Assembly: GCA_024643655.1 (NCBI GenBank)
Contig: JAHEMM010000016.1
Span: 1 to 42,628, forward strand
Direction of reading: 5' to 3'
DNA from: Chitinophagaceae bacterium
GTDB lineage: Bacteria; Bacteroidota; Bacteroidia; Chitinophagales; Chitinophagaceae
DNA: 42,628 nt
Shown: one piece after another, positions 32,005-33,699 of the stretch
Layout of the letters: every line of letters begins with the position of its first letter
How positions within the stretch are numbered: the first letter of the stretch is position 1
Translations under genes and position numbers: made by a program
The notes under the pieces: model-generated
Databases searched by the model: none
Told to the model about the DNA's origin: nothing
What the model saw: the letters and a program-made list of their open reading frames with translations, nothing else

Positions 32005-32331
32005 CTAGATGAGTTTATCGTTATTCTTATGTCTTTCGCTATCTCTATTATTCTTTTTTTCAAAATTTTTCTCCAAAGCTGTAGTCAGGTCTACTCCTGT
32101 TTGATTGGCCAGGCAGATCAAGACCCAAAGTACATCAGCCATTTCATCAGCCATTTCATTCTTTTTTTCAGAATCCTTAAATGACTGATCGCCGTATTTA
32201 CGAGCCATAATACGGGCAAGTTCACCCACTTCTTCAGTAAGAATCGCCATGTTTGTTAATTCACTAAAGTAGCGAACACCCACAGTTTTTATCCAATCAT
32301 CTACTTTTTGCTGCGCATTTTCAATAGTCAT
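32005..32331 (-). CDS. MazG-like nucleotide pyrophosphohydrolase
   Basis: A 108-residue protein of the all-alpha NTP pyrophosphatase superfamily, which hydrolyses nucleoside triphosphates to monophosphate and pyrophosphate and can clean up damaged nucleotides. The magnesium-binding helices are visible: E33-E34-x-x-E37 (LTEEVGELARI) and E59-x-x-D62 with E63-x-x-D66 (EMADEMADVLWV). I start it at the ATG at 32331 (MTIENAQQKV), which fits the family; an upstream ATG at 32367 would add 12 hydrophobic and cysteine-rich residues without similarity. The C-terminal tail is highly charged. It probably shares a transcript with glyS. Confidence 0.88.
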   Translation of the reverse strand: MTIENAQQKVDDWIKTVGVRYFSELTNMAILTEEVGELARIMARKYGDQSFKDSEKKNEMADEMADVLWVLICLANQTGVDLTTALEKNFEKKNNRDSERHKNNDKLI

Positions 32332-32476: not shown

Positions 32477-32806
32477 ATGCAACAATCAATTCGTAGGCTA
32501 TTAGCCATTGTAACCCTATCACTATTAGTTTTCGTTTCTCAGGCACAATCTGATAGCAATCTGCCTTTAAAAACTGAAACAAAGCCTTATAAGATTCTTA
32601 CGGCTGGCAAACAAATTACCATAAAAAGTACAAAAGATATTAAACATATAATGCTATGGACAACCAGTGGTAACCGTGTAGTAGAGCAAAAAGATATCAA
32701 TAAAACTTCTTTAACAATTAACATACCTGTAAATCAAAAAGCATTTTTCATAATGATCGGACTTGTTGGCGGCAAGATTTATACAGAGAAGATTGGAATT
32801 CAGTAA
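32477..32806 (+). CDS. Small secreted protein resembling a lone type IX sorting domain
   Basis: A 109-residue protein with a signal peptide (cut near residue 23, VSQAQ) and a mature part of only about 85 residues. The last 70 residues look like a type A C-terminal sorting domain of the type IX secretion system: ITIKSTKDIKHIMLWTTSG with the GNRVV turn, NKTSLTINIPVN and a final GKIYTEKIGIQ. There is no cargo domain in front of it. It could be a remnant, a small surface protein, or a domain of similar beta fold with another role. Its stop codon shares its last base with the left inverted repeat of the neighbouring GxxExxY unit. Confidence 0.7.
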   Translation: MQQSIRRLLAIVTLSLLVFVSQAQSDSNLPLKTETKPYKILTAGKQITIKSTKDIKHIMLWTTSGNRVVEQKDINKTSLTINIPVNQKAFFIMIGLVGGKIYTEKIGIQ

Positions 32807-32836
32807 ACACTAATTTCATCAAATTACACGAATTAT
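32806..32836 (+). repeat. Left inverted repeat of the GxxExxY unit
   Basis: A 31-base sequence that starts AACACTAATTTCA and ends with ACGAATTAT. It matches the reverse complement of 33210-33241 at about 26-27 positions with one gap. The GxxExxY stop codon follows directly at 32837. Confidence 0.7.
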
Positions 32837-33211
32837 TTAAAAGACCACTCTTTTATAAGTCAGGGATTTTTCACCAAAATTTATTATAATACCCAACTTA
32901 ATTCCTGAAGCTTTTAAATAATTAATAGTTTGATAAACAAAGGGGTTTACGATTACCGGTGTTGCTTTTATTTCTACTATAATAGAATCAAATAATACAA
33001 AATCAGCATAAAATTTTCTAGGCAATACTTTTCCTTTGTATTCAATCTTATATGCTTTTTCTCGTTCATATTTGAAGTCGAGCATTTTCAATTCAATTTC
33101 TAATGCATCTTTATAAACTATTTCTTTAAACCCCATACCCAATTCTCTATGTACTTCCATACAAGCTCCAACTATTTTATAGGACTCTTCTTTGAATATA
33201 AGGTCTGCCAT
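32837..33211 (-). CDS. GxxExxY protein
   Basis: A 124-residue protein of the GxxExxY family, named for the motif G27-F-K-E30-I-V-Y33 seen here. Farther on, D70 (FYADFVLF) and E80-I-K82 (IIVEIKA) have the spacing of a PD-(D/E)xK nuclease core, so a nuclease-type fold is likely, but the role of the family is not established to my knowledge. The C-terminus (YLKASGIKLGIIINFG) is typical. The gene is framed by inverted repeats that abut its start and stop codons, which sets it apart from its neighbours. It is on the same strand as dtd and lies just downstream of it. Confidence 0.9.
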   Translation of the reverse strand: MADLIFKEESYKIVGACMEVHRELGMGFKEIVYKDALEIELKMLDFKYEREKAYKIEYKGKVLPRKFYADFVLFDSIIVEIKATPVIVNPFVYQTINYLKASGIKLGIIINFGEKSLTYKRVVF

Positions 33212-33241
33212 AATTAGTGTAATTAATTTGAAATTAGTGTT
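33210..33241 (-). repeat. Right inverted repeat of the GxxExxY unit
   Basis: On the minus strand it reads AACACTAATTTCA followed by AATTAATTACACTAATTAT, nearly the same as the left copy at 32806-32836. It overlaps the first bases of the GxxExxY start codon and ends six bases before the dtd stop. Confidence 0.7.
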
Positions 33242-33246
33242 GCAAA

Positions 33247-33699
33247 TTATTCTTTGCTTTTTGTATCTATAACTATCGTTACCGGTCCATCATTCAATAA
33301 TTCAACTTTCATATGGGCACCAAAAATACCAGTGCCAATAGGTTTTCCTAAATCTATTGCTAACTGTTGAATCATTTTTTCATATAAAGGAACAGCAATA
33401 TCAGGTTTACTTGCTTTAATATAGGATGGCCGATTCCCTTTTTTGGTAGATGCATGAAGCGTAAACTGACTTACCAGTATTATTTCGCCTTTCTTATCCA
33501 GCACAGATTCATTCATTACACCTTCAGCATCATTAAATATTCTAAGATTTACGATTTTCCCGCTTAACCAAATAATATCTTCTGCAGTATCTTCATCTTG
33601 AAACCCAATTAAAACTAATAAGCCTTCATCAATTTGTGCAGTATAATCTCCATTTACCTTTACACTTGCCTTACTTACCCGCTGAATAACTGCTTTCAT
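33247..33699 (-). CDS. dtd: D-aminoacyl-tRNA deacylase
   Basis: A 150-residue enzyme that removes D-amino acids, and mischarged glycine, from tRNA. Family motifs are present: MKAVIQRVSKASVKV at the start, LVSQFTLHAST in the middle and the Gly-cis-Pro loop NDGPVTI near the end; GTGIFGAHM is also typical. I start at the ATG at 33699; an in-frame ATG at 33774 would add 25 hydrophobic residues, unlike the family, and would run into arfB. It is divergent from arfB with only 38 bases between the two start codons. Confidence 0.95.
   Translation of the reverse strand: MKAVIQRVSKASVKVNGDYTAQIDEGLLVLIGFQDEDTAEDIIWLSGKIVNLRIFNDAEGVMNESVLDKKGEIILVSQFTLHASTKKGNRPSYIKASKPDIAVPLYEKMIQQLAIDLGKPIGTGIFGAHMKVELLNDGPVTIVIDTKSKE

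Follow-up and report, generated by a model that had tools for sequence, protein, structure and literature searches.

What is a GxxExxY gene doing between inverted copies of one short sequence, in a narrow gap between two unrelated genes? This question is raised by positions 32806-33241 of the window, which is the whole stretch of 42,628 nucleotides analyzed here. A sequence-only reading of this DNA proposed that the nuclease-like protein may act on its own ends and that the unit may thus be a minimal selfish element. We examined the unit itself, its site in related genomes, the flanks of related genes, and dispersed copies of the flanking sequences.

A single gene between inverted arms

The GxxExxY gene (32837..33211, minus strand) encodes a protein of 124 amino acids, which profiles, alignment and a structure model place in the PD-(D/E)XK nuclease superfamily. 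One inverted arm lies 3' of the stop codon (32806..32834, plus strand; AACACTAATTTCATCAAATTACACGAATT) and is composed of imperfect CAC(T/G)AATT units, and the other abuts the start codon (33212..33241, minus strand; AACACTAATTTCAAATTAATTACACTAATT on the gene strand). The outermost 13 nt are identical in both arms, and beyond them the arms can be aligned with small gaps over 29-30 nt. The sequence-only reading had described oppositely oriented repeats of about 31 bases touching both codons. The repeats are indeed there and the distance from arm to ATG is 0 nt, but the other arm is 2 nt away from the stop codon; and because the inner part aligns only with small gaps, they form an imperfect repeat with a length of 29-30 nt.

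The local alignment score of the arms was 34. When both flanks were shuffled 5000 times with dinucleotides preserved, 1 shuffle reached this value, and we regard the inverted repeat bounding the gene as confirmed. Exact matches to the core CACTAATTTCA occur in the window at the two arm positions only, and the arm pattern was found in the organism's own genome only at the same two positions.

Two neighbors lie outside the element, namely a 109-aa ORF (32477..32806, plus strand) with no Pfam or NCBIfam match, and a gene that we take from its sequence to be dtd-like (33247..33699, minus strand). A presumably mazG-like gene (32005..32331, minus strand) was used together with dtd for the host tree. 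The TAA of the 109-aa ORF occupies 32804-32806, and its last A is common to the stop codon and the arm; the dtd stop codon (33247-33249) is 5 nt from the unit. The exact fit between two stop codons that had been claimed is thus nearly right. The sole ORF of at least 80 aa within the unit is the GxxExxY gene, and neither the ORFs nor the Pfam and NCBIfam profiles revealed a transposase gene inside it. In Rfam, no family exceeded its gathering score in any of 16 sources, the window included.

A compact nuclease-type protein

The window gene matched TIGR04256 (E 3.2e-38; 130.7 bits against a curated cut-off of 35 bits) and PF13366 (E 1.8e-33; 115.8 bits, cut-off 22), and these were its only profile matches, with neither S23 (PF05635) nor a tyrosine transposase among them. 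In an alignment of 25 GxxExxY members, E30 of the GxxExxY motif, D70, E80 and K82 were invariant in all 25, as were G25, G27, Y33 and F112. D70 and E80xK82, which had been read as fitting a nuclease core, are thus conserved, together with E30. Q94 and Y98 were nearly invariant, and none of these fully or nearly conserved positions is a cysteine. The residues D, ExK and QxxxY constitute the motif of RecB-family nucleases, and Cas4 has conserved cysteines for an iron-sulphur cluster.

The AlphaFold2 model of the window protein had a pLDDT of 93.2. Its best fold match was the Cas4 protein SSO0001 (PDB 4ic1; Foldseek E 3.8e-5, TMq 0.62), and the comparison with SSO0001 by VIA gave Z 10.1 and an rmsd of 3.0 over 98 residues, the next Z being 7.5. 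A search by sequence for relatives with a solved structure gave none that was credible. The model predicts that the window protein has a compact Cas4/RecB-type PD-(D/E)XK fold. That is, it would have the fold and the D, ExK and QxxxY residues in common with Cas4/RecB-family nucleases, while being smaller than Cas4 and without an invariant cysteine. Among the ORFs listed, no neighbor of the gene stood out as cas-like. We infer that the GxxExxY protein cuts DNA, and likewise which DNA it would cut. The three GxxExxY pairs with usable dS gave dN/dS values of 0.08, 0.22 and 0.29, and these few values suggest that the protein sequence is under constraint.

The dtd site in related genomes

Four genomes of the same genus (G106, G118, G115 and G102) have neither the gene nor the arms beside dtd, a short remnant being possible in G115, and G098 retains both gene and arms. 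At most a short remnant is present at the site in locus L042. The 109-aa ORF adjoins dtd also in relatives without the element. Thus, empty sites exist in close relatives, and gene and arms are absent from them together.

In a tree of dtd and mazG from 20 loci, the window was sister to a unit-less genome (support 0.936), and so was G098 (support 0.974). Since the sisters of both lack gene and arms, the unit is gained or lost as a whole. A related gene, broken in some cases, lies between dtd and mazG at eight loci (L064-L066, L068, L069, L071, L074 and L075), and for this reason an old insertion followed by repeated clean loss explains the pattern as well as repeated gain. Between the window and G098, the GxxExxY proteins are 69% identical and the neighbors 75% and 79%; judged from these sequences, the protein has diverged about as much as its neighbors, a pattern expected if the unit was inherited vertically and lost repeatedly.

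Several arm units of G098 read CACGAATT where those of the window read CACTAATT. When the arms of L004 and L039 were compared, the same G-to-T change was seen in several units, as if they had been homogenized together. In G118, the GxxExxY-less dtd slot (in L041, some 72 nt ahead of position 1500) holds a 72-bp AG-rich insert with inverted CTAAGAG at both ends, the halves of which align weakly (score 15); it is perhaps a gene-less element of the S23 type described below.

Arms at other GxxExxY loci

Five PF13366 genes are present in the organism's own genome. Inspection by eye shows inverted arms at each of them, and the arms differ in sequence: TTTTACCGCAGAGAA; CTAAGATT..GATTAACC; ACTACAGAGACAG; GCCACGAAA..AACACGAAAA; and the window's CACTAATT. 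The arms of the window are therefore no local oddity. The alignment scores of two of these loci (L002 and L003) were not outstanding. Of 98 family-level genomes, 67 carry PF13366, and this patchy distribution of a multi-copy family agrees with the earlier statement that such genes occur in many copies.

In order to examine the arms quantitatively, we collected 89 gene places, made up of high-scoring PF13366 matches, 11 of 12 named relatives (L071 left out) and L039, with L011, L023 and L033 included. L088, L108 and L114 were dropped for a short flank or a run of N, leaving 86 usable places. The 150 nt upstream of each gene were aligned with the reverse complement of the 150 nt downstream, and mismatched loci served as the null. 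In this sample, which is the top of the match list and hence non-random, the median score was 29 and that of mismatched loci 16; the 95th percentile of mismatched flanks was reached by 52 of the 86 loci and the 99th by 25. Control ORFs of the same loci had a median of 16, and 6 of 154 reached the 95th percentile, the top scorer of these six being a second GxxExxY gene of its stretch. These results indicate that arms accompany the gene at the majority of loci. The other 34 of 86 fell below the 95th percentile and have no strong inverted repeat; loci without such repeats, which the sequence-only reading had named as grounds for rejecting its idea, do occur in part.

The aligned arms showed an autocorrelation peak at 9 nt (z 11.2), the next being z 3.1 at 10 nt. 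Read by eye, the template was GTCTGAACnnnGATT in the LGNGFQEV subfamily, AAC(G/A)C(A/T)GATT in the YNxLGYGFLE subfamily, CGCAAAG in the GEAINVHKQLGPG subfamily, CACGAATT in the ELGMGFKE subfamily, and CACAGAG in many ELGPGLLES members. A Mantel test was performed on 80 loci, genes with an internal stop or of at most 100 aa being dropped, with 3117 pairs left after 43 sharing outer DNA were removed, the removal being by DNA similarity only. Protein identity and arm similarity were correlated (Spearman 0.24; 0 of 2000 permutations), and arms in reversed orientation, used as a control, also correlated (0.17; 0 of 2000). Among the 79 pairs above 65% identity, fractions of 0.38 (sense) and 0.37 (reversed) scored at least 30; an orientation-specific signal appeared at 45-65% identity (0.06 vs 0.02 and 0.21 vs 0.09, sense vs reversed). 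Because reversed arms correlate too, and equal the sense arms above 65% identity, palindromic flanks and common descent contribute to the correlation. Taken comprehensively, these sequence comparisons suggest that arm sequence tends to follow the protein subfamily.

Eight further loci came from a plasmid collection. Those of Bacteroides finegoldii and Bernardetia have clear inverted CACAGAG arms, and that of Gemmatirosa (YNTLGYGFLE type) has, by eye, a downstream palindrome of ACGCGGAT units. The loci of Fusobacteria, Treponema and Sphingomonas carry partial arrays, and those of Prevotella and Persicobacter are weak.

S23 and GIY-YIG genes

PF05635 (S23) genes were present in 28 of 40 genomes. 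From 35 S23 loci, 31 were used (L178, L183, L059 and L061 were dropped); 28 of these exceeded the 95th percentile and 18 the 99th, so that S23 arms are stronger than those of GxxExxY, and their period was 7 nt (z 24.4). S23/IVP four-helix-bundle genes between locus-specific inverted 7-nt arrays were seen at L058, L060, L062, L063 and 27 of L174-L202. Seven cyanobacterial S23 loci were also inspected: five have strong inverted heptamer arrays, L252 is weak and L249 has none. On the cyanobacterial plasmids L250, L251, L253, L254 and L255, inverted AAAGCTA, GGTGACA, AAAAGGG and GGGAACA arrays flank the S23 genes, and in L250 and L251 the gene with its arrays lies between cas6 and cas4. Short tandem heptamer repeats are known in cyanobacteria, and S23 heptamer arrays may be one source of them.

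GIY-YIG genes were considered as a third arm-bearing family. There were at least 30 loci, 17 of them small; four were excluded because their length was anomalous, at contig ends or otherwise, and 13 were used. Their median score was 18 vs 16; the 95th percentile computed for this family was reached by 3 of 13, and a score of at least 26 by 1 of 13; we set this family aside, since these 13 loci showed little sign of arms. At L221, L222, L226 and L242, small GIY-YIG genes seem, by eye, to adjoin tRNA genes and to have sequence resembling tRNA on either side.

Mismatches within the arms were analyzed as well. G-U-compatible mismatches were not in excess in GxxExxY arms (79 vs 90, p 0.44); the figures for S23 arms were 49 vs 45.

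Gene-less copies of LGNG-type arms

The LGNG arm template was found in 39 of 98 genomes, and the reversed control pattern gave a single match overall. Gene and template occurred together in 23 genomes, gene alone in 10, template alone in 16 and neither in 49 (Fisher 2e-5); that is, the template is carried by 23 of 33 genomes with an LGNG gene, vs 16 of 65 without. Among the matches listed, many were solitary, and of neighbors closer than 700 bp, 24 pairs pointed inward, 2 outward and 11 the same way.

Genome G077 holds 166 template copies, far outnumbering the gene. In 14 of 18 G077 stretches there is an exact inward pair with a span of 52-350 bp, and the remaining 4 have one exact arm only. 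A gene-less type of 148 bp has 12 further near-full-length copies in G077 (71-89% identity) in addition to partial copies. In L159 the arms enclose a remnant of a GxxExxY gene, namely its 3' part (G077:C46:82734-82883; E 5.8e-21 over profile positions 73-122), which was detected both by inspection of the stretch and by an independent profile search. This indicates that an element with the gene can give rise to one without it. G077 also has another interspersed repeat, about 126 bp long and unrelated to the first (L205:7733-7862, L212, L213, L214, L216 and L218), and its L216 copy sits within a GTCTGAAC-type palindrome.

G077 has no more of the gene than this fragment, and in G005 there are 15 template copies with no PF13366 match; a simple model in which the gene acts in trans is disfavored by these two genomes. 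Across 26 LGNG-type elements no target-site duplication emerged (at the best of many settings, 0.38 vs 0.24 for mismatched pairs), and no palindromic target exceeded mismatched pairs. The sites of the G077 elements had no match in one other genome of its genus. When 42 genomes of the window's genus were scanned for window-type arms, one solo arm was found; the pattern used was so strict that the arms of the window itself do not match it.

Wide dispersal of the repeat without the gene had also been named beforehand as evidence against a mobile unit. Such dispersal exists for LGNG arms and is not seen for the window's arms. Because the dispersed copies are often inward pairs, one of them with a gene remnant, they look like non-autonomous derivatives and not like a refutation.

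What the unit may be

We lean, by a little, toward regarding the window unit as a minimal mobile element that carries a single gene and has non-autonomous derivatives, resembling the REPIN-RAYT system but with an unrelated enzyme. That the unit is mobile is likely, and that the nuclease mobilizes its own arms is about an even question. The same layout around relatives, together with the scattered gene-less copies, suggests an undescribed kind of tiny bacterial mobile element. The selfish element proposed earlier is supported in part: at the dtd site, the gene is never seen without the arms or the arms without the gene, arms accompany the gene at most loci, and the nuclease residues are conserved.

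Such an element might work as follows. The 32806-33241 unit ends in inverted arms built of imperfect tandem units that recur every 9 nt, and the protein would recognize the units of its own arms, which is the simplest account of subfamily-specific arms. It would then cut or nick at the ends and start excision and re-insertion, and host repair or replication would complete the movement with no target-site duplication. Internally deleted, gene-less palindromes with the same arms would, to judge from their anatomy, have spread in trans in some genomes. The window copy would go back to a long-past insertion next to dtd, and among relatives the unit would have come or gone whole.

Several results argue against a single-gene element, namely the S23 layout, the reversed-arm correlation, the templates in 16 of 65 LGNG-less genomes, the lack of a target-site duplication, the 34 of 86 weak loci and the undispersed arms of the window. 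The main argument against a central role of the nuclease is that two unrelated proteins, GxxExxY and S23, have one layout, although S23 does not belong to the nucleases. A common host or mobile process might act on the inverted short-unit arrays of both kinds of element, with the encoded protein as a passenger, stabilizer or processing factor, much like the situation in intervening sequences of 23S rRNA; the arm copies in genomes without the gene would agree with this. The period, however, differs by family (9 vs 7 nt), GxxExxY arms tend to follow the subfamily, gene and template co-occur, the few usable dN/dS values point to protein constraint, and GIY-YIG genes, which are also small and multi-copy, show little sign of arms. 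We consider this process unlikely, although worth keeping in mind. Recognition by the encoded protein is favored, since unit length differs by family and arms tend to follow the subfamily.

The palindromes may instead be the older partner, and the GxxExxY nuclease gene may have entered them by cutting and then recombining via the arms. Such homing would fit the predicted nuclease fold, the palindromes that share these arms but have no gene, and the arms that tend to go with the subfamily, but the four dtd-site relatives lack arms as well as gene and offer no empty palindrome of that kind, and the single gene remnant points from gene-bearing to gene-less forms; we think homing quite improbable. 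Still less probable is that nothing moves and that the arms are a transcript stem or operator controlling the gene. Such a role would suit arms that touch or nearly touch the start and stop codons, and it is contradicted by the lack of a G-U-compatible excess, by the high-copy gene-less palindromes and by presence or absence at a conserved dtd site. The window flanks are AT-rich and the arms imperfect, as a chance likeness would require, but after the shuffles and the family-wide tests we give chance practically no weight.

Relation to known systems and meaning

The mobile single-gene element that we favor resembles the REPIN/RAYT system in that inverted pairs of one short sequence are dispersed in the genome, a related sequence flanks the gene, and gene-less pairs outnumber it; the RAYT protein is a tyrosine transposase, whereas GxxExxY is a PD-(D/E)XK protein (PMC3116915, PMC3733652). 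GxxExxY arms also differ from REPINs in being tandem units with a 9-nt period, and gene-less inverted doublets of the RAYT/REPIN type are dispersed for the LGNG subfamily but were not seen for the window's own arms. As in MITEs, gene-less elements share the ends of a longer gene-bearing element, and one holds a gene remnant; unlike MITEs, the unit has no known transposase and no target-site duplication. It differs from insertion sequences and from transposons with terminal inverted repeats and a DDE transposase in that the window unit has no transposase and LGNG-type elements no target-site duplication. When homing endonuclease genes are compared, four dtd-site relatives are without gene and arms, and gene-less palindromes occur elsewhere.

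S23/IVP genes and 23S rRNA intervening sequences likewise offer a small single gene (S23) between inverted arms, patchy and multi-copy, and the intervening sequence of Coxiella, 428 nt according to the part of the report consulted, is similar in size to the window unit (PMC4990558). In contrast, the S23 protein is unrelated and its arms have a 7-nt period, not one of 9 nt, and rRNA intervening sequences lie within rRNA genes whereas the window unit lies between dtd and the 109-aa ORF. The heptameric intergenic repeats TAACTGA (PMC4679880) and GGGAATC (PMC4692102) are described, in the passages available, as short-unit arrays whose spreading is unexplained. Their 7-nt units resemble S23 arms, unlike the 9-nt GxxExxY arms. 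S1, Csp or Csr proteins were proposed as binders of TAACTGA, and of the origin of these repeats it is said that "no mechanism is evident" (PMC4679880, in the portion available); neither "S23" nor "four helix" is present in the accessible text of the two papers.

No description of GxxExxY arms was found in the literature searched, most subscription papers lying outside the search. A text search for six arm sequences gave no match; for a second set, every match listed was due to the 9-mer GTCTGAACC by itself and is best seen as coincidental. In the text searched, the name GxxExxY was found in two papers, mentioned in passing in the passages concerned, "PF13366" in one and "TIGR04256" in none.

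A bolder proposal, which we hold tentatively and at rather less than even weight, is that of a new class of transposable element, in which a Cas4-like nuclease of about 125 residues is the sole mobilizer, 9-nt unit arrays coevolve with it, and MITE-like derivatives arise. Together with S23 elements (7-nt units, the cyanobacterial heptamer arrays included), it would form a superclass of array-ended mini-elements, and these would be the missing agent for short-unit intergenic repeats in many phyla.

GxxExxY genes are widespread in the family, yet scarcely treated in the literature searched. As the gene of a self-contained element with subfamily-matched arms, GxxExxY would have a function that can be tested directly. 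If this reading is true, a very small nuclease is paired with a modular DNA target, and the finding bears on a question left open in the published text at hand, namely the origin of short-unit intergenic repeats (PMC4679880).
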